57,746 nucleotides of DNA from Chitinispirillales bacterium (GTDB taxonomy: Bacteria; Fibrobacterota; Chitinivibrionia; Chitinivibrionales; Chitinispirillaceae): the NCBI GenBank assembly GCA_031254105.1, contig JAIRVB010000032.1:1-57746 (forward strand), read 5' to 3'. The notes under the pieces are model-generated. The model made no database searches. It worked only from the letters and a program-made list of their open reading frames with translations, and had not been told where the DNA came from. The translations under genes and the position numbers were made by a program. Shown in pieces: positions 11,946 to 20,045 of this stretch (position 1 is its first letter; each line of letters starts with the position of its first letter).

Positions 11946-12786
11946 CTATGCCGCCTGTTTTATACTGTTCCCCATCAGTTGTACAGCATACTCCCGTGGT
12001 GACATATAACCCAACCTGGCTTGTACTCGTCTGTTGTTGTAAAACCCCTCGATCCAAGTAAATACCGTTTGCCGAAGTTCTTCACGTGTAAGAAAATGTC
12101 TGAAGTGAATACACTCCTTTTTCAATGTCGCAAAAAAAACTCTCAGCCCAAGCATTATCACCAGGCATACCAACACGGGAAAAACTCTGCTTTAAACCGT
12201 ACAGCTTCAATATTTTTGTAAATTCAGTTGAAGTATACTGGCTGCCGCGATCTGAATGAAAGATAGTCCCTGCCTCCAAACCATGACGTGCCTGCGCATT
12301 GAGAAACGCACTAATTACAAGCTCTTTCTTCATCCTCTCATTAGTTGCCTCACCAAGTATTTCGCCTGTAACGATATCCTTGACTGCACAAAGATATAGC
12401 CACCCTTCACCACTTTTGAGATACGTAATGTCGCTGCATACGGCCTTGCACGGTTGAACGAAACACTGCCCTCTCACAAGGTCTGGATATACTTCGCCTC
12501 GCGATTTGCGGCTGTCTGTCAAACTGCGCATTTTGTGCCGGTTATGTACAGACTTCAAGCCCAATTCTGCCATATATCCACTCACTTTGCGATAAGACGC
12601 TTTACGACCGCTTTTACGCATAACACCACAAATCCTATCTGCACCGTATGTACCATCGCTCTCATCAAATATCAACTTAATAGATGCTTTTAACCTCTTT
12701 TCATGCTCATTGCACCGATCTCGGCGAGCAATAAAAGCATAATAACCGCTGCGCGATACCTGAAAAAATGCCGCCCACTTAGCCAC
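11946..12786 (-). pseudogene. IS3-family transposase OrfB, frameshifted
   Basis: DDE integrase-fold transposase. The N-terminal HTH_21-like part contains QVSRSGYYAF. Asp 1 lies in SDITYLKSGEGW, Asp 2 in FHSDRGSQYTS and Glu in DNAWAESFF. Just after the catalytic Glu the frame is lost in a run of eight T's on the coding strand (12132-12139). With seven T's the reading continues as FFATLKKECIHF, then through the usual tail (NNRRVQARLGYMSPREYA) to the stop at 11946. As it stands the product ends early with a wrong tail (stop at 12082). A sequencing or assembly indel in the homopolymer, or productive slippage, cannot be excluded. The listed GTG at 12786 is conventional; translation probably enters by frameshift from orfA. 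Confidence 0.85.
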
Positions 12787-12821
12787 TGAGTAGTCTTCTC
12801 GATCAAAAATGAAGCGATAGA

Positions 12822-13103
12822 TTACTTGTGCAGGTTTGCAAAGTAGGCTGTGGCCTTTTTTAACATATCACGCTCTATCTTCAACTCCGCGTTTTCAAGA
12901 CGAAGCGCTTTCATCTCTTCTTCAAGCGTGGCTGTGCGGCTCTTGTCGCCTTCTGCTGTGTACTTTTTACGCCAGATATATAAGCTGTTCTCGTTGACTC
13001 CCAAATCGTCTGCTACTTGCTTTATGCTCTTGGGACTGGCGTAGCTGAGTTTTACTGCGTTCTTCTTGAACTCTTCATCGTATTTACTGCGAATTACGGA
13101 CAT
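12822..13103 (-). CDS. IS3-family transposase OrfA
   Basis: A 93-residue HTH_Tnp_1 protein that binds the element ends and regulates transposition. The N-terminus SKYDEEFKKNAVKL, then QVADDLGVNENSLYIWRKK, forms the helix-turn-helix. A leucine-zipper-like coil (LEEEMKALRLENAELKIE) follows. Near its 3' end the codons TTA AAA AAG place a canonical A_AAA_AAG slippery heptamer in phase. Slipping back one base there gives an OrfAB fusion continuing into the OrfB frame. Confidence 0.9.
   Translation of the reverse strand: MSVIRSKYDEEFKKNAVKLSYASPKSIKQVADDLGVNENSLYIWRKKYTAEGDKSRTATLEEEMKALRLENAELKIERDMLKKATAYFANLHK
12855..12861 (-). promoter_or_regulatory. A6G programmed -1 frameshift site
   Basis: On the coding strand the zero-frame codons are TTA AAA AAG, so the A_AAA_AAG heptamer is correctly phased. 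A -1 shift opens a frame that passes the orfA stop and joins OrfB (VIYRFIFDREDYSVAKW). This is the standard route to the OrfAB transposase in IS3-family elements. Confidence 0.75.
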
Positions 13104-13370: not shown

Positions 13371-13540
13371 GATTGAAAGATAAATTTACAGGCTCTCATT
13401 TTTAACAGAGCTGATATTATGAGTTAGAACAGCACCGGTCTTGCCCGGGTAACCGTTGTTTTTGGCTTATTTTCGTAGCGTTGCGGAAAACTCTGTTTCA
13501 AAGTAACAAATTCACCCTTCTCAGGTGTTTAATAAGTATG
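13371..13540 (+). repeat. Two-part leader repeat upstream of the sigma factor
   Basis: Part A (13371-13394, GATTGAAAGATAAATTTACA and flank) recurs near 37717 and, weaker, near 18713. Part B (13498-13540, containing CTCAGGTGTTTAATAAGTA) recurs at 18800-18842 upstream of a lipoprotein gene, at about 36 of 43 positions. Part B runs directly up to the ATG at 13541, so it may be a promoter or translation leader. The rest of 13181-13480 shows no gene. Confidence 0.55.
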
Positions 13541-14065
13541 CGCGCTATGGTCACAACAGGTACCCTGAGCGAAAACGAGACAAAAAACGCAAATACCGAG
13601 GAGCTTTTCCGGAAGTATGGCCCCATGGTATTGAGGCGCTGCCGCCGCATATTGGGCGATTCCTGTGACGCTACCGATGCTGCGCAGGAGGTTTTTGTGA
13701 AGGCTCTTGAGAGTAAAAACGCGCTTTCGGCCGGGGTGTCGTCAAGTCTTTTATGGAGTATAGCGACCAACCACTGCTTAAATATCCTAAGGGATAAGGC
13801 GCGGCGCGGCGGTAACTTTGATGGAGAATTACTTTTAGAAGAAATTGTTTGCACAGAAGACATGGAGGCGCGAATCAGCTGCCGCAGCATACTGCGTAAC
13901 CTGTTCAGCCGTCATCCGCAGTCAAGCCGTACTATTGCGTATCTGCATTTGATAGATGGAATGACGCTTGAGGAAACTGCCCGTATGGTAAATATGTCTG
14001 TAAGCGGGGTGCGCAAGAGGCTTACGGCTCTTCGCGAAACACTCGGTGAAATGGAGGGGATATGA
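13541..14065 (+). CDS. ECF-type RNA polymerase sigma factor
   Basis: A sigma-70 family factor of about 174 residues. The region 2 core is ELFRKYGPMVLRRCRRIL, then DATDAAQEVFVKAL, then LLWSIATNHCLNILRD. Region 4 has YLHLIDGMTLEETARMVN and MSVSGVRKRLTALR, an HTH for the -35 element. The start is uncertain: an in-frame TTG at 13481 would put repeat DNA into the protein, so I prefer the ATG at 13541 (or 13550). The stop overlaps the next ATG (ATGA), so sigma and the DUF4384-like protein are translationally coupled, as usual for sigma/anti-sigma pairs. The third gene is a caspase-like protease. Confidence 0.88.
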   Translation, partial: RAMVTTGTLSENETKNANTEELFRKYGPMVLRRCRRILGDSCDATDAAQEVFVKALESKNALSAGVSSSLLWSIATNHCLNILRDKARRGGNFDGELLLEEIVCTEDMEARISCRSILRNLFSRHPQSSRTIAYLHLIDGMTLEETARMVNMSVSGVRKRLTALRETLGEMEGI

Positions 14066-14886
14066 ACGCTGGCAATGAAGCAGCTCCCCGCGGCCGTCCG
14101 CCCGCGAGGGACAGCGCGCGCGCGCACTCGGTTCCTGACTGGAAACTTGAGCTCTATCTGCTCGGCGAATTGTCCGATGAGGAGCTTAAGCTGGATGAAG
14201 GTACTTTGAGGGAGAGGATAGCGGCCCTGCGCGACAGCGACGCGAAAATTTTAGAGACACATCCGCCGGCCTGGATGGCAGGACGCATAGAGAGGGCGCG
14301 CGCAGGGAAGTTGGCCAGCGCCGAAAAAAAGAACAGGCGGCTGATCCGGTTATTCGCGATACCTGCGGCGGCCTGCGCTGCGCTGCTGGTTTTATTTCCG
14401 GTTGGTATGCAGTCATTCGAATTTGCCTTTAAGCATCCGGCAGCTCCGCGTTACGAAGACCGTGTGAAAGGAGCCGTTTCCGTGGAGCCCGCTATAGAGG
14501 TTTGGCGCAAGGAGGGTGATATGGCCCGCAAACTCGCGCCATTGTCGGACGCGCGGGAGGGGGATGTGGTTCAGGTACTTTACACAGTCCACAGTTTCTG
14601 TTACGGCGCGATTGTAAGTATGGACGGCCGCGGAGTTCTGACCGTTCATCTTGCGGGTGAATCCGGCAAAGCCTCCCCGCTTGCTCCGGGCGGGCCTGTC
14701 GCGCTGGACATGTCGTACCAGCTTGATGACGCTCCTCTCTACGAGATATTTTATTTAATTACGTCATCCGAAAATTTTGATTTGGACAGCGTAACCCAGC
14801 CGTTAAAAAAGGCGGATCATCCGGTTGACCGGTGGGATGAATCTTTCCGGACAAAAATCACAACGTTTACTTTAAACAAAACGTGA
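14062..14886 (+). CDS. Membrane protein with DUF4384-like domain, probable anti-sigma factor
   Basis: A 274-residue protein. The cytoplasmic N-terminus contains DWKLELYLLGELSDEEL, which resembles the start of anti-sigma domains (W.LE.YL.GEL) but lacks the HxxxCxxC zinc motif. A single membrane helix follows at about 94-116 (RLFAIPAAACAALLVLFPVG). The extracytoplasmic C-terminal domain (about 140-270) has the DUF4384-like pattern: GDVVQVLYTVHSFCYGAIVS, then a Gly/Pro turn, then LYEIFYLITS. Topology and its place directly after the ECF sigma gene (4-base overlap) make an anti-sigma role likely. This is inference; the N-terminal sequence is divergent. Confidence 0.65.
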   Translation: MNAGNEAAPRGRPPARDSARAHSVPDWKLELYLLGELSDEELKLDEGTLRERIAALRDSDAKILETHPPAWMAGRIERARAGKLASAEKKNRRLIRLFAIPAAACAALLVLFPVGMQSFEFAFKHPAAPRYEDRVKGAVSVEPAIEVWRKEGDMARKLAPLSDAREGDVVQVLYTVHSFCYGAIVSMDGRGVLTVHLAGESGKASPLAPGGPVALDMSYQLDDAPLYEIFYLITSSENFDLDSVTQPLKKADHPVDRWDESFRTKITTFTLNKT

Positions 14887-14905
14887 AAAATAATGTAGAA
14901 TAATA

Positions 14906-16690
14906 ATGCATAACGCAAAAGTATCAAAACCGGTTGTTGCGCGGAGAGGAGCGGTTCCATCTCCTTTTTATTTTATTTCCGCGCTCTGCGTTATTATTTT
15001 TGCGTTTGTTTCAACCGCCGCTCCATCTCAGGAGCCAACGGAAATCCGGCGTTATATGCTTTCCGTCGGAGCGAATAATGGCGGCCGGGAGCGCGTTCTC
15101 CTGCGTTACGCTGTAACCGACGCGCGGGCGTTTGCGTCTATACTTACGGAGATGGGGGGTGTAGACAGGCAAAACTCGGTTATCCTCGCTAATCCGGGCA
15201 GAGATGAATTTTTAAGCGCGGTAACGGAAATAGAGGTGCTCATTGCAAAAGACAGAGGGAGCGGAGTCAGAAGCGAAGCTTTTATTTACTACAGCGGTCA
15301 CGCGGACATTGACGGGTTGAAGCTGGGCGGGGAGACGCTTAGCTGGTATGACTTCCGCAGCGCGGTAAACAACCTTGGCGCCGATATCCGTGTAGCGATT
15401 GTTGACGCGTGCGGTTCAGGAGCGGTAACGCGCACAAAGGGCGGTATTCCGCGTCCCGCGTTCATGCTTGACGCGAGTAAAAATATGAAAGGATACGCGT
15501 TTCTGGCATCCTCGAACGCAAACGAAGCAAGCCAGGAGAGCGACCGGATAAAGGGCAGCTATTTTACCCACGCGCTGTTAAACGGAATGCGCGGCGCCGC
15601 GGATCTGACCGGCGACGGAACAGTCACCATCAACGAAGCGTACAGTTACGCTTTCAACGAAACTTTGAGAAGTACGCAAAACACAAGCGCGGGAACGCAG
15701 CACCCAAGCCGCGATATGAACTTAGCCGGAACCGGCGACATAGTGATGACCGATCTGCGCCGTACAAGCGCGATACTGGCGCTTGGCCCGGGCACCGAGG
15801 GACGTTTTTTCATAAGAGACGCGTCCGGCAACCTCTTCGCGGAGCTTCACAAACAAGGGGGACGCCAGATGGATTTGGGTATACCGCATGGCAGGTATTC
15901 CGTGCAGATGGAAACGCAGTCGGGTACATGGACAGCCAATAATGTCGTTACAGTTGAAGGCGGCAAAACCGCGCTTTCGATGAGCGATATGAGAAAAACA
16001 AATAAAAAGAAAACAACCGCCCGCGGAAATGGGGACGCGGGGTACGGCCCCAATACGCTCAGCGGTTTTCAAACACTCGCTTACAACAGTATCTTTGACG
16101 CCACCCTGTATGGCGATGTGTCCGGCAGCGTCGGCGCGTCGCTGCGTGTTGGGGTTCCGTGGTTCTATTGCCTTGTTGAATACAATACCATCGCGGATAT
16201 TAAATACATCGAAAAATCGAAACCCGGAACAAATGATCCCTCTAGCCATCCTAGTAATTCCTGGCCTATCAATCCCAATAATCCGAACATGGATACTGAT
16301 TACTGGGATGATAAGGGTTTAGGGGAAGTGAATGAAGCGGAGCCTTGGCGGCTGCATACCGCGCCAGGATACGCGGGTTTTGGCATAGGTACGCGTTTTG
16401 GCATGAACGGGCCGTTTTTCGTGAACCTTGACCTGATTAACCGCGCTTTGGGGCATAAAGACCGGGATCACGATTTTTACCGCGTGCGTCTCGGAGCCGC
16501 TTACAACCCATCGCCGTATTTCGCAATTACGGCAGGCGCAAGCGTAAACGGCATAATAAACCGCAAAGGCGGCCTTGTGGAATATGAGCCGTCTAAGAGA
16601 TACTCCGGAAATAACGGCGCGAGAGTGTGGCCCGATATCTACGCCGGATTGACTACAGGAAAGATTTTGGCGGGAAGGAAGTATCAGTGA
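14906..16690 (+). CDS. Exported caspase-like (C14) peptidase with C-terminal outer-membrane-like domain
   Basis: A 594-residue protein. An N-terminal signal or anchor lies at about 22-42 (FYFISALCVIIFAFVSTAAP). Residues about 50-275 form a caspase/metacaspase p20-like domain: LSVGANNGG, then DARAFASILTEMGG, the catalytic His in YYSGHAD and the catalytic Cys in IVDACGSGA, followed by FLASSNANEAS and FTHALLNGM. A short Ig-like or PEGA-like linker follows (GRYSVQMETQSG). The last 220 residues are rich in Gly and aromatic residues (GASLRVGVPWFY, GFGIGTRFGMNG, RVRLGAAYNPSPYFA), resembling beta-barrel strands. It lies 20 bases after the anti-sigma-like gene, so all three are one operon. The protease may cleave the anti-sigma or act as an envelope effector; neither is shown. 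Confidence 0.85.
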   Translation: MHNAKVSKPVVARRGAVPSPFYFISALCVIIFAFVSTAAPSQEPTEIRRYMLSVGANNGGRERVLLRYAVTDARAFASILTEMGGVDRQNSVILANPGRDEFLSAVTEIEVLIAKDRGSGVRSEAFIYYSGHADIDGLKLGGETLSWYDFRSAVNNLGADIRVAIVDACGSGAVTRTKGGIPRPAFMLDASKNMKGYAFLASSNANEASQESDRIKGSYFTHALLNGMRGAADLTGDGTVTINEAYSYAFNETLRSTQNTSAGTQHPSRDMNLAGTGDIVMTDLRRTSAILALGPGTEGRFFIRDASGNLFAELHKQGGRQMDLGIPHGRYSVQMETQSGTWTANNVVTVEGGKTALSMSDMRKTNKKKTTARGNGDAGYGPNTLSGFQTLAYNSIFDATLYGDVSGSVGASLRVGVPWFYCLVEYNTIADIKYIEKSKPGTNDPSSHPSNSWPINPNNPNMDTDYWDDKGLGEVNEAEPWRLHTAPGYAGFGIGTRFGMNGPFFVNLDLINRALGHKDRDHDFYRVRLGAAYNPSPYFAITAGASVNGIINRKGGLVEYEPSKRYSGNNGARVWPDIYAGLTTGKILAGRKYQ

Positions 16691-16827: not shown

Positions 16828-16912
16828 ATAAAACTCCTTTTCAAGTTGAATGACTGTATTGTAAGTATATTTGGTATTTCCGCATTGTATTTGTTTAGGA
16901 GATTATTATTCC

Positions 16913-17809
16913 ATGAGCGCCAAAAAATTATTACTAATCATGACAGCCGCAATTTTGGCGGGATGTGAGACCCCGTCAGGATGGCAGGACAGCAATTCCG
17001 GCGGTACTAATACGCTTACGGTACATGTGTATCCGGCCGGCGGCGGTTTAGTTGATACCGTGGGATCTGATAATGGATCCGGTACAAGAAATATCCGGTT
17101 GACAGCTGTACCGGATTCCGGTTATGAGTTTTTGGGCTGGCTTGGCAATGTGTCGTCGGATTCGTCAGATACCACCATTGTTTGCGTGGGCGGTGAATGC
17201 GGCAGCAAAACGGTTACCGCCATTTTTGTTGATAAAAGTTTTCGCGTACTAATAACGGGTGACATATTTAATAGTATCGGGAGGCTAGGATATTTATGGG
17301 ATACCAGAGATTTTCAGATGTACGTTACAATATTAATGCCGGATGGTAAGACGTGGATGATGCAGAATCTTAATTACAATGGTACCGGTTCCTGGTGTTT
17401 TGATGAGAGTTCCGCTTACTGTGAGACATACGGCAGACTTTACAATTGGGATGCCGCGGTGAAAGCTTGTCCTTCCGGCTGGCGTTTACCCACAGATCAG
17501 GAATGGACGGAACTGGGTATTTCTGTGGGAGGTAATATTGCCGGCAGGACACTTAGATCCCAACCCCCTGACTGGAATGGTACGAATGATTTTTTGTTTA
17601 CGGCATTGCCGGCAGGCGGCCGCGATGCCGCGGGTAATTTCTTCGGCCATCGTGACGGTTACTGGTGGACCGCTACGGAGAATGGAGGGGATTACGCGTT
17701 TACTCGTGAGATGACTACTGGCGATGATGGTTATATATGCAACAGCCACCTGTGCAAGAACAGCCGCGGCAAGGAGTTTGGTTTTTCGGTACGCTGTATC
17801 AGAAACTGA
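16913..17809 (+). CDS. FISUMP-domain lipoprotein
   Basis: The start is the ATG at 16913, with TTAGGAG about 11 bases upstream. The signal peptide ends in a lipobox (ILAGC, Cys about residue 18). Residues about 30-110 form an InlB-type B-repeat-like beta domain (YPAGGGLVDT, then SGYEFLGWLG). Residues about 135-298 are the Fibrobacter succinogenes major paralogous (FISUMP) domain: GKTWMMQNLNYN, YGRLYNWDAAVKACPSGWRL, PTDQEWTEL, YWWTATENG and FGFSVRCIRN. The protein is expected to be anchored in the outer membrane and exposed. Its biochemical role is unknown. This is the best phylogenetic marker in the window. Confidence 0.9.
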   Translation: MSAKKLLLIMTAAILAGCETPSGWQDSNSGGTNTLTVHVYPAGGGLVDTVGSDNGSGTRNIRLTAVPDSGYEFLGWLGNVSSDSSDTTIVCVGGECGSKTVTAIFVDKSFRVLITGDIFNSIGRLGYLWDTRDFQMYVTILMPDGKTWMMQNLNYNGTGSWCFDESSAYCETYGRLYNWDAAVKACPSGWRLPTDQEWTELGISVGGNIAGRTLRSQPPDWNGTNDFLFTALPAGGRDAAGNFFGHRDGYWWTATENGGDYAFTREMTTGDDGYICNSHLCKNSRGKEFGFSVRCIRN

Positions 17810-17885: not shown

Positions 17886-18128
17886 CTAAGTAAAAATTGG
17901 TTTACTCTTCTTATATAAAACTTCGGGGTCTAAATCTATCCCGTTAGGCCATTCTATTGTATCAAAAGAAACTTTTACCATTTTGAAAAAATCGAGATCT
18001 TTTAATTTGCTAAATACACCAGTATTCAAATATGGTTTTACATCGAAAACCCTGACTTCCTTATTTTCAAAGGTAAGTTCAAGTTCATAATTATCTAACG
18101 TTTTTACTTTATTTACGGATAGATACAT
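17886..18128 (-). CDS. DUF2442 protein
   Basis: An 80-residue protein with the DUF2442 pattern: TLDNYELELTFENKEVRVFD, then a LKDLDFFKMVKVSFDTIEW core and GIDLDPEVLYKK at the end. DUF2442 genes usually follow DUF4160 genes, as here, and the pair is treated as a toxin-antitoxin-like module, with DUF2442 often the antitoxin candidate. It starts 11 bases after the DUF4160 stop and ends two bases from an attC-like site. A second, unrelated-looking DUF2442 gene is at 52399. Confidence 0.8.
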   Translation of the reverse strand: MYLSVNKVKTLDNYELELTFENKEVRVFDVKPYLNTGVFSKLKDLDFFKMVKVSFDTIEWPNGIDLDPEVLYKKSKPIFT

Positions 18129-18139
18129 ATTTTATTACC

Positions 18140-18406
18140 CTATTTTAAAGGTTCAATATTGTATGGGAGTTCTCCGTTTTGTGCCAATTCCCAATTAGCC
18201 AACAGTTCTTCTTTACGCAAAATTATCCATGCGGTAACTAATCGTTCTTTGTCTTTTGGTAAGTTACCCTCAGATTTTTCACCTGTCTTTATATTAAAAA
18301 TAGCTTTCTTCTTTTGATAATAAGCATGAATATGGGGTGGATTATGTTCCTTTTTTCCCAGATACATTCTTATCAGGATTCCATAAAACATTGAAATCGT
18401 AGGCAA
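18140..18406 (-). CDS. DUF4160 protein
   Basis: An 88-residue protein with the DUF4160 hallmarks: PTISMFYGILIRMY, EHNPPHIHAYYQ (the conserved PHxH motif) and a C-terminal LANWELAQNGE. The start is a TTG at 18406 preceded by a strong AGGAGAG, and the family N-terminus PTI fits this start. It forms an operon with the DUF2442 gene. Together with the attC-like site they look like an integron gene cassette inserted against the direction of its neighbours. Confidence 0.82.
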   Translation of the reverse strand: MPTISMFYGILIRMYLGKKEHNPPHIHAYYQKKKAIFNIKTGEKSEGNLPKDKERLVTAWIILRKEELLANWELAQNGELPYNIEPLK

Positions 18407-18711: not shown

Positions 18712-18842
18712 TGAAAGATAAATTCACGGAAAAATTTTACACGTTCCAGTGCCGCAGGCACTAAGCCGCAATTTTCTATCCTCTACTAAAAAAACTTTTA
18801 AAAGTAACAGATTCATCTCCCTCAGGTGTTTAATAAGTAGGA
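18712..18842 (+). repeat. Leader repeat copy upstream of lipoprotein gene
   Basis: Contains a weak match to part A (18713-18728) and a good match to part B (18800-18842, CTCAGGTGTTTAATAAGTA) of the leader before the sigma factor at 13541. A small hairpin, AGTGCC-GCA-GGCACT, lies at 18748-18762. Part B ends about 110 bases before the lipoprotein start. Nothing else is recognisable in 18407-18953. Confidence 0.5.
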
Positions 18843-18953: not shown

Positions 18954-20045
18954 ATGCAGGAATATGCTAACGGCAAGCTTAATCGCTTAGTCAGAGAGTG
19001 CATTGGGTCAAAGGTTTTAAGTGTAGCAGCCGCGTTGGCTTTTTCGGCGTTTATGCTTGCCGGATGCGGAATCGGCGATAATCCGGTGGAATCGGGCGGA
19101 AATAATACTCTGAAAAAATTCGCTGATGAAGCGGTAGAGTTTGACGAAAGATTGATACCCAGTTTTATGAATATGTGGGCGCAGGTTGTGAATGATAATG
19201 TGGTTCAGGTACTTTCTTTTGATAATGAAGATGAGATCTGTTTTGGCGATGATTGTCCTGGGTTTCTTCCCCCCAGCGAATACGTGCCTGTCACTTTGGC
19301 TCAAGTGGATTTTGCTTCCTCCAGCGGAAAACCCATTTTTACCGGATCATGCTATACCGTTGGAGACAGTGTGCTTCATATTGTCAGGTCAGGTATGGCG
19401 GATATGGTGTTTAATTATACGTTGTCCGGTAACGGTCAGGTCTTAACATTGTCTGATAAGGCGGAAACGGTGACGCAATTTACACAAATGAATATCATAA
19501 CGTATATATTTCAATTTAATATTAGATTTGATATTGAAGAGGAATTGATAGGCAATGGAGCGAGTCTGGATTTTAATATCGCTTATGAACAGTACTCCGG
19601 CATCTATGGCTATTGGGGTTTGTGGTATCCAACAAATGGTAATTCCAACAGAGAGTGGGTTTTCTCATGGTCTGATTATGGGGACGTTAGGGTGCCGGTG
19701 TTATCAATATCAGACGAAGACATTTCAACCGAATGGGATTACTATTGTTTTACAAATGCTGATGTAAATGTTATTCCGGCCAACCGTAGTTCCGGGGAAT
19801 TATATCTCATAAACATGTTCAGAGGCGATACGCTTTTTGTTTACACATATGAAATATCAGATGATATTTTAACATTGACCGACAAGAACACAGATGAGGT
19901 GATAACATTGTCAAAACATAAAACATCATCAATAAGGCAGCGCGGCAGACAATTGTCAAAAAGCGCGGGAGGAACTGCTGGAGGCGTCAGAAGCGGCAAT
20001 TCGGCCATAACTTCAATGAAATCACTGCTCAATAAGAAAAAATAG
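18954..20045 (+). CDS. Exported lipoprotein of unknown function
   Basis: A 363-residue protein whose ATG is preceded by AAAGGAG. A long signal region ends in the lipobox FMLAGC (Cys about 38), so it should be lipid-anchored. The mature part appears to hold two related beta-rich modules: the first about 60-190 (containing GDSVLHIVRSGMADMVFNYT, LTLSDKAETVTQF), the second about 210-330 (LYLINMFRGDTLFVYTYEIS, LTLTDKNTDEVITLS). This suggests an internal duplication of a lipocalin-like or 'NSDGTY' type fold. No family name can be given. It opens the second part of the exported-protein cluster and shares an upstream repeat with the ECF sigma operon. Confidence 0.7.
   Translation: MQEYANGKLNRLVRECIGSKVLSVAAALAFSAFMLAGCGIGDNPVESGGNNTLKKFADEAVEFDERLIPSFMNMWAQVVNDNVVQVLSFDNEDEICFGDDCPGFLPPSEYVPVTLAQVDFASSSGKPIFTGSCYTVGDSVLHIVRSGMADMVFNYTLSGNGQVLTLSDKAETVTQFTQMNIITYIFQFNIRFDIEEELIGNGASLDFNIAYEQYSGIYGYWGLWYPTNGNSNREWVFSWSDYGDVRVPVLSISDEDISTEWDYYCFTNADVNVIPANRSSGELYLINMFRGDTLFVYTYEISDDILTLTDKNTDEVITLSKHKTSSIRQRGRQLSKSAGGTAGGVRSGNSAITSMKSLLNKKK

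Follow-up and report, generated by a model that had tools for sequence, protein, structure and literature searches.

An exported caspase-family protease in a conserved ECF sigma/anti-sigma operon of Fibrobacterota and its predicted role as a site-1 protease

Introduction

Anti-sigma factors of the DegS-RseA-RpoE and RsiW type have one transmembrane (TM) helix, a cytoplasmic part and a juxtamembrane periplasmic site. Regulated intramembrane proteolysis of these factors is named in a paper on the CRISPR system CASP, where the CHAT protease Csx29 cuts Csx30, an inhibitor of an extracytoplasmic function (ECF) sigma factor (PMC10028731). Here, a three-gene operon is described. It lies on the + strand at positions 13538-16690 of a 57,746-nucleotide stretch of DNA from a Chitinispirillales bacterium (contig JAIRVB010000032.1; the whole stretch is called the window) and encodes an ECF sigma factor, an anti-sigma-like membrane protein with one TM helix and an exported caspase-family protease. 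The gene order recurs within and beyond the phylum Fibrobacterota, and both the caspase and the anti-sigma protein carry a conserved basic-Gly pair in a linker. We propose that the caspase releases itself at one of these pairs and destroys the anti-sigma protein at the other.

Operons of sigma-70 factors and metacaspases were listed in 2012 for Myxococcus, Anaeromyxobacter, Haliangium, Sorangium, Ralstonia and Fibrobacter (PMC3501461). This is the same gene association, with Fibrobacter already named. Section 13 of that paper places the sigma gene beside the metacaspase gene only and describes neither anti-sigma, motifs, barrel nor mechanism. EACC2-caspase genes have been reported near ECF sigma factors (PMC8195603), and proteolytic control of ECF54 sigma factors by neighbours including CHAT proteins, without an anti-sigma factor, has been proposed (PMC8999054). 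A search of open-licence papers yielded no description of an exported caspase that cuts an anti-sigma factor, nor of the anti-sigma protein, the motifs or the mechanism considered here. The candidate cut sites and the shared promoter motif presented below go beyond an earlier note on this DNA.

With CASP (Csx29, Csx30 and CASP-sigma), the present locus shares a caspase-like protease directed against an ECF sigma inhibitor, here as a proposal. The CASP protease, as described in PMC10028731, is of the TPR-CHAT type and activated by target RNA bound to Cas7-11, whereas the present one is exported and has Peptidase_C14 as its only Pfam family at E<=1; unlike in CASP, the inhibitor is a membrane protein. 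The DegS-RseA-RpoE and RsiW systems resemble it in the one-TM anti-sigma factor, the juxtamembrane periplasmic candidate site and the presence of M50 genes in the genome. They differ in that here the proposed site-1 protease is an operon-encoded caspase-family enzyme with a barrel-like anchor and a matching site of its own. Metacaspases, orthocaspases and MALT1 have the same fold, His/Cys dyad and acidic pocket residues in common with the caspase of the window, which departs from them by a signal-peptide-like N-terminus, a barrel-like C-terminus and a steady partnership with sigma and anti-sigma.

Conservation of the three-gene order

Search profiles were iterated on one set of open reading frames (ORFs); membership was decided by similarity within this set, and position was not used. 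Caspase matches were found in 80 of 100 Fibrobacterota genomes, our own included. The anti-sigma profile matched in 66/100, all of them among the 80 with a caspase match, and in none of the 20 genomes without one. Some of the 66 anti-sigma matches cover only the N-terminus or the C-terminus, and in one genome (G023; L, G and C numbers are our handles for loci, genomes and contigs) the sole caspase match is a C-terminal piece.

Distinct Fibrobacterota caspases, 88 in number and a part of those found in the 80 genomes, were examined for their neighbours. The anti-sigma gene adjoins 86 of them and the sigma gene as well 84; the automated counts of 85 and 83 were each raised by L117, an ORF-start artefact where all three genes are listed. 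Two caspases from one genus (L012, L013) have no adjoining anti-sigma gene, and in genome G077 sigma and anti-sigma lie on another contig (L126). L083 sits at a contig edge with no sigma gene seen, and L010 has no sigma gene and a shortened anti-sigma. A scan of genome contigs, which overlaps partly with this set, found 283 relatives, of which 79 loci were kept (46 from Fibrobacterota, 33 from elsewhere). The 46 Fibrobacterota loci contain the anti-sigma gene in 45 cases and the sigma gene in 44 (L199 has neither, L186 is cut). Among the 33 others, judged adjacent by coordinates, the anti-sigma gene is present in all and the sigma gene in 21. These are labelled Latescibacterota, Gemmatimonadota, Acidobacteriota, Myxococcota, a spirochaete, Aminicenantes, two unnamed bacteria and a Comamonas record. 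At L206, the order is caspase, sigma, anti-sigma. Twelve of the 33 lack a sigma gene: L131 is cut by a contig edge, at L148 none was found and the anti-sigma is shortened, and ten are of myxobacterial type (see below). Since the gene order recurs in the phylum and outside it, the association exceeds chance. The earlier note had called for exactly such a survey and made its proposal depend partly on conserved synteny, which was found across Fibrobacterota and beyond.

Two side observations concern these loci. In three Latescibacterota loci (L132, L133, L134), a second caspase of the same family, also with an R-G linker, is encoded about 1.7 kb downstream. The record labelled Comamonas (L161, BNCN01000010.1) has a Myxococcus-like gene neighbourhood and is probably mislabelled or part of a mixed assembly.

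The sigma factor and the anti-sigma-like membrane protein

By its family matches, the product of the first gene is an ECF sigma factor, as the earlier note had it: TIGR02937 is matched with 67.7 bits (cut-off 42.9) over residues 21-170 and PF04542 with 45 bits (cut-off 24); region 4 reaches 22.8 bits against PF08281, under the cut-off of 25.7. The start that had been assigned at 13541 is no start codon and has to be replaced by one of the in-frame ATGs at 13538 and 13547. The ATGA overlap with the membrane protein gene is present, the latter starting at 14062 and overlapping the sigma stop codon. The caspase gene follows as described, with 19 instead of 20 bases between the anti-sigma stop codon and its ATG.

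The membrane protein contains no cysteine N-terminal of its TM helix and consequently no HxxxCxxC zinc motif; it falls outside the class I zinc-binding anti-sigma factors, which carry this motif in the cytoplasmic part. At E<=1, it has no match to any Pfam or NCBIfam family. Of 24 aligned anti-sigmas, 22 match DUF4384 (PF14326) at E<=1, the best with 8.1e-5. The paralogous anti-sigma reaches 24.3 bits, and because such matches stay below the curated cut-off of 27 bits, the domain is named DUF4384-like. Both the missing zinc motif and the periplasmic DUF4384-like domain had been read correctly from the sequence before. In an AlphaFold model built on 47 sequences, N-terminal helices lead into a long helix (69-111), which contains the greater part of the TM segment. 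Residues 112 to 137 are disordered (predicted local distance difference test score, pLDDT, below 50), and a beta-sandwich modelled with confidence spans residues 140 to 274, approximately. The gene overlap with sigma and the conserved adjacency are the grounds for a putative anti-sigma role, in which the protein would bind and inhibit the sigma factor. A profile search of solved structures gave no convincing match and no sigma-binding domain, and Foldseek found no match to the model at E<=0.001. VIA matches of the model to assorted beta-sandwich domains (Z 8-9) were set aside as a common arrangement. At L215 (G018:C152), a sigma/anti-sigma paralogue without K-G and with no caspase match in the fetched stretch, the anti-sigma N-terminus runs, by eye, into a barrel-like C-terminus.

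The caspase

The third gene product belongs to the Peptidase C14/metacaspase-paracaspase family by family match, His/Cys dyad and fold. It matches PF00656 with 27 bits (cut-off 21.4), and the dyad, which the earlier note had considered intact, is conserved as His132 and Cys169 in all 90 rows of an alignment that includes two duplicates. D72, D167 and E211 are likewise conserved in 90/90 rows. VIA aligned the caspase domain with metacaspase 4 (AtMC4; Z 17.6, 197 residues, 3.0 A), and procaspase-7 (Z 17.5) and MALT1 (Z 17.3, 192 residues, 3.0 A) are tied with it. As a single sequence, the caspase found no solved structure at E<=1, and a plasmid search with the caspase domain gave zero matches.

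In the structure model, the caspase domain is followed by a small beta-sandwich, disorder from residue 370 on and C-terminal antiparallel strands at lower confidence. These strands (478-584, moderate to low model confidence), together with an OMP_b-brl match above cut-off in the relative L179 and below it in L132, agree with the barrel-like C-terminus suggested earlier. The N-terminus resembles a signal peptide by eye. A second, paralogous operon in the same genome (contig C15) encodes an 801-aa caspase with many VNIA-type repeats. These repeats, also present in longer relatives, are absent from the caspase of the window, as from L006 and L010. The window protein also lacks the terminal Phe of 42/88 caspases.

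The active-site surroundings suggest a preference for basic residues. S1 residues are Asp365, Asp462 and Glu500 in MALT1 and Arg87, Gln184 and Arg233 in caspase-7, and for TbMCA2, Cys92, Asp95, Ser156 and Asp211 have been proposed (PMC4357240). Orthocaspases and metacaspases cleave at Arg/Lys (PMC7475262, PMC3501461). In the caspase of the window, D72 lies in the first long helix and D167 two residues before Cys169, and a profile alignment to metacaspases pairs both with their metacaspase counterparts. As these acids resemble those of the MALT1 and metacaspase pockets, cleavage after Lys/Arg is predicted from D72, D167 and the nearby E207/E211, these glutamates being equated with MALT1 Glu500 by spacing only.

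Candidate cut sites in both proteins

In 84 of the 88 Fibrobacterota caspases, the small beta-sandwich is followed by [KR]-G (R373-G374 in the window). In the remaining four, a basic-Gly pair is offset from this alignment position by 2 to 11 residues: L067 reads FRGG about 11 residues earlier, and L097 and L098 read YRG and L121 DKGG, in each case two residues later. The pair is conserved at 90% or more in a 47-row alignment. Among the contig-scan loci, it is found in 45/46 from Fibrobacterota (in the remaining one, L129, on the same contig as L121, it is shifted by two) and in 31/33 others (L130 masked, L158 cut). In 31 further stretches, two of which have caspases cut by contig ends (L262, L265) and three of which repeat contig-scan loci (L275, L279, L280), all 22 uncut caspases have [KR]-G 80-91 residues past the end of the caspase profile. 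Two other modules (L284, L287) contain both motifs. Eight caspase loci without a sigma or anti-sigma match in the fetched stretch (L290, L291, L292, L295-L299) served as a small and rough control. A basic-Gly pair 78-92 residues past the profile match was present in two of them (L295 and one of three L296 proteins; L292 is too short), which suggests that the linker motif is not a general caspase feature.

In two lineages, the C-terminal part is encoded by a gene of its own, and in one of them the split falls almost exactly at this place. In L097 and L098, the caspase ends five residues past R-G, and the gene that follows codes for an exported homologue of the missing C-terminal part (phmmer 4.5e-29 to the sister caspase L087). 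In the four best alignments for L097, the sister caspases' residues 4-16, numbered from their glycine, are aligned with residues 20-32 of the new protein. With a signal peptide of about 20 residues, judged by eye, the mature protein would hence start a few residues past the glycine. Four myxobacterial loci (L273, L274, L276, L277) have no adjoining caspase; there, the anti-sigma gene is followed by one for a stand-alone exported homologue of the C-terminal part, whose best match to that part of a myxobacterial caspase is 2.4e-52. These splits indicate that the caspase halves can exist as separate chains. The same four genomes keep an anti-sigma/caspase pair elsewhere.

The anti-sigma protein has a similar pair at the end of its disordered linker. 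K136 and G137 are each conserved in 86/87 anti-sigmas, and none of the other columns, of 274 in all, reaches their conservation; for R134, it is 74%. The K-G pair is invariant in the 47 rows of a cross-phylum alignment. The distance from the TM end to the motif varies (15-46 residues in 86/87, 78 in one). The motif is present in 44/46 Fibrobacterota loci of the contig scan (L186 cut, L199 without anti-sigma) and in 32/33 others (L131 cut). In the 31 further stretches, mostly from myxobacteria, Lys-Gly occurs soon after the TM helix in 30/30 readable anti-sigmas; that of L279 is split over two frames and unreadable, and the identical contig of L143 reads RLK-G. Throughout L068-L117 (48 loci, L097 and L098 aside), the caspases have K-G except for L073, which alone has R-G; L073 is also the only R-G among the 87 anti-sigmas. 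Conserved basic-Gly motifs in both proteins are an added reason to suppose that the caspase acts on the anti-sigma.

Promoter motif and predicted regulon

In 29 sigma-gene upstream regions, many from closely related genes, the best exact dyad occurs in 14, compared to at most 3 in shuffles. The motif GTRACA-N14-16-GGTGTTNAA has five exact matches in the whole genome of the window; the reversed control has none. Two of the matches lie before the two sigma genes, and the others before the genes of a 363-aa lipoprotein-like protein in the window, an exported 331-aa protein (L308, G000:C27) and a 110-aa lipoprotein-like protein (L314, G000:C43), the last with a sub-threshold Lambda_Bor match. A looser form, GTRAC-N15-18-GGTGTT, lies upstream of 34/44 Fibrobacterota and 9/20 other sigma genes, counted over contig-scan loci with enough upstream sequence; the mean in shuffled controls is 0.0 and the reversed control gives 0. 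Ten Fibrobacterota sigma genes lack it; in at least two of these cases (L167, L181), AAGTGTT stands in place of GGTGTT. The position of the motif before its own sigma genes and before genes of exported or lipoprotein-like proteins supports the view that the sigma factor autoregulates the operon and drives a small envelope regulon. As the candidate promoter lies so close to the sigma start codon, the message would be nearly leaderless or would start at the next ATG. In two Fibrobacter-type genomes (L306 in G049, L312 in G074), the motif stands before a gene that lies about 5-6 kb away from the caspase match and encodes an exported, coiled-coil-like protein of 278 aa.

Proposed mechanism and alternatives

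In the mechanism that we propose, the helical N-terminus of the anti-sigma would keep the sigma factor at the inner membrane. The caspase would be exported, and its barrel-like C-terminus would tether it, probably to the outer membrane. Upon an envelope signal, the caspase would cut itself between R373 and G374 and free the protease part. The latter would perform site-1 cleavage of the anti-sigma between K136 and G137 in the periplasmic juxtamembrane linker, and an M50-family site-2 protease would then free the sigma factor to fire the GTAAC-N-GGTGTT promoters of its own operon and of exported-protein genes. Two full-length M50 proteases are encoded in the genome. We estimate the probability that the operon-encoded, self-releasing caspase acts as a site-1 protease that destroys the anti-sigma at slightly below 60%. 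The idea that the caspase belongs to an envelope sigma pathway, already raised in the earlier note, gains support from synteny and conserved motifs; the direction of control is one that we infer.

Several observations weigh against this mechanism. The strongest doubt is that K-G might be part of the DUF4384-like domain: from G137 to G167 within this domain, the distance is 25-26 residues in 72/87 anti-sigmas and thus nearly fixed. Exceptions occur, namely K-A in L108 and K-S-G in L219, which is outside the set of 87. Seven sigma/anti-sigma units without an adjoining caspase keep the motif (L250, L255, L273, L274, L276, L277, L278). Their genomes hold family caspases elsewhere, which fits action in trans as well as a structural role; for the same reason, they were rejected as a clean control. 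On the caspase side, four proteins without a neighbouring sigma/anti-sigma match (L281, L282, L283, L285) keep the linker motif. In module L286, the anti-sigma motif is present and the caspase linker has no [KR]-G. In the more distant L288, L289, L293 and L294, K-G occurs at 49 and no [KR]-G is found near 80; L294 is also without an anti-sigma match, and L300 combines R-G at 77 with an anti-sigma that lacks K-G. Ten myxobacterial-type loci (L149, L156, L161, L164, L169, L184, L185, L192, L196, L201) hold anti-sigma and caspase with no sigma-like ORF upstream; a sigma/anti-sigma pair is found elsewhere in five of their genomes (G100, G101, G103, G114, G115). Finally, tethering at the outer membrane is derived from a low-confidence model and one above-cut-off Pfam match in a relative.

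The most serious alternative, to which we give about one chance in five, is that the caspase is a mere output of the sigma factor, an on-demand protease for envelope remodelling, with K-G as a structural element of DUF4384-type anti-sigmas and the caspase [KR]-G used for maturation only. The caspase gene is indeed the last behind an apparently autoregulated promoter, and the fixed spacing of K-G as well as its retention in units without a neighbouring caspase would be explained. The model, however, places the K-G pair in a disordered region, the DUF4384 match of the paralogue begins 26 residues after the pair, and anti-sigma and caspase remain paired where the sigma gene is gone. Furthermore, two caspase-less paralogues with the same anti-sigma N-terminus (L215, L216; no caspase in the fetched stretch) are without the motif, though also without the DUF4384-like domain. 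Among the genomes searched, no DUF4384-type anti-sigma from a caspase-free genome was found. Three further anti-sigmas (L212, L213, L214) lie at or near contig ends, where the presence of a caspase cannot be judged, and were discarded.

The pairing of anti-sigma and caspase in the ten sigma-less loci would also suit mutual inhibition, in which the basic linker residue of the anti-sigma would block the caspase pocket like a pseudosubstrate until anti-sigma and caspase are pulled apart. The anti-sigma would then hold back the protease as well as the sigma factor. A precedent is the clan relative gingipain RgpB, in which a prodomain arginine serves as an inhibitory loop of this kind (PMC4357240). 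The second basic-Gly site in the caspase itself better fits a processing enzyme, and we regard mutual inhibition as rather improbable. A role in defence or programmed death, with the operon arming a caspase that kills the cell on attack, appears very unlikely. Caspases do recur in bacterial conflict systems, with EACC2-caspase genes beside ECF sigma factors (PMC8195603), and the caspase of the window resembles an EACC1-type model below its cut-off (49 vs 140 bits). Yet the protein looks exported, its family occurs in 80/100 genomes of the phylum, unlike a patchy defence gene, and the three further promoter matches precede genes of exported or lipoprotein-like proteins. That another basic-specific envelope protease cuts both linkers, with the caspase as one of its substrates, is the least probable case: both sites are simple basic-Gly pairs, but the caspase itself adjoins them in nearly every locus and has a predicted pocket that fits.

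Site-1 cleavage by the caspase may be one instance of a widespread outside-in cascade: an envelope-tethered zymogen would free itself at a basic-Gly pair and then, by cleavage of a one-TM anti-sigma at a matching pair, switch on transcription, and the barrel anchors would be interchangeable sensors. Such a cascade might operate in Fibrobacterota, Latescibacterota, Gemmatimonadota, Acidobacteriota, Aminicenantes, Myxococcota and a spirochaete, as the records are labelled; for this broad form, the odds are slightly less than even. Much about the roles of bacterial caspase relatives is still to be learnt, and they are often discussed in terms of cell death. The family described here belongs to a stable transcriptional circuit, and its substrate, cut site and promoter are predicted in concrete terms. 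If the proposal is true, bacterial caspases gain a signalling job and constitute a new class of site-1 protease, and the sigma-metacaspase association that is listed without mechanism in section 13 of PMC3501461 is explained.

Features of the operon and its surroundings

Table 1. Features of the sigma/anti-sigma/caspase operon and predicted regulon in the window
Feature	Position	Strand	Remarks
Candidate ECF promoter GTAACA-N15-GGTGTTTAA	13503..13532	+	ends 5 bases 5' of sigma start codon
ECF sigma factor, 175 aa	13538..14065	+	alternative in-frame ATG 13547
Anti-sigma-like membrane protein, 274 aa	14062..14886	+	helical N-terminus without zinc motif, one TM helix, linker, DUF4384-like domain
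Anti-sigma TM helix, about residues 97-117 by eye	14350..14412	+	hydrophobic stretch; limits approximate
R134-V-K136-G137, candidate caspase cut site	14461..14472	+	end of disordered linker 112-137; conservation, pLDDT<50
DUF4384-like beta-sandwich, residues 140-274	14479..14883	+	family matches of relatives, structure model
Exported caspase-family protease, 594 aa	14906..16690	+	signal peptide by eye
Caspase domain, residues 47-282	15044..15751	+	alignment, fold matches
Caspase key residues	D72 15119-15121; H132 15299-15301; D167 15404-15406; C169 15410-15412; E211 15536-15538	+	
Small beta-sandwich 3' of caspase domain, residues 289-365	15770..16000	+	structure model
R373-G374, candidate self-cleavage site at junction of protease part and C-terminal part	16022..16027	+	conservation, gene splits
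Barrel-like C-terminal strands, residues 478-584	16337..16657	+	structure model; copy without VNIA-type repeats of longer relatives
Second copy of promoter motif	18804..18833	+	upstream of lipoprotein-like gene
Predicted regulon member, 363-aa lipoprotein-like protein	18954..20045	+	no Pfam family at E<=0.01

Two ORFs on the - strand (12082-13103), situated just upstream of the operon, resemble an IS3-type transposase pair. A protein with Fib_succ_major and InlB-type repeats is encoded directly downstream (16871-17809). It is followed by two small adjoining ORFs on the - strand (17886-18406) that resemble DUF2442/DUF4160 pairs.

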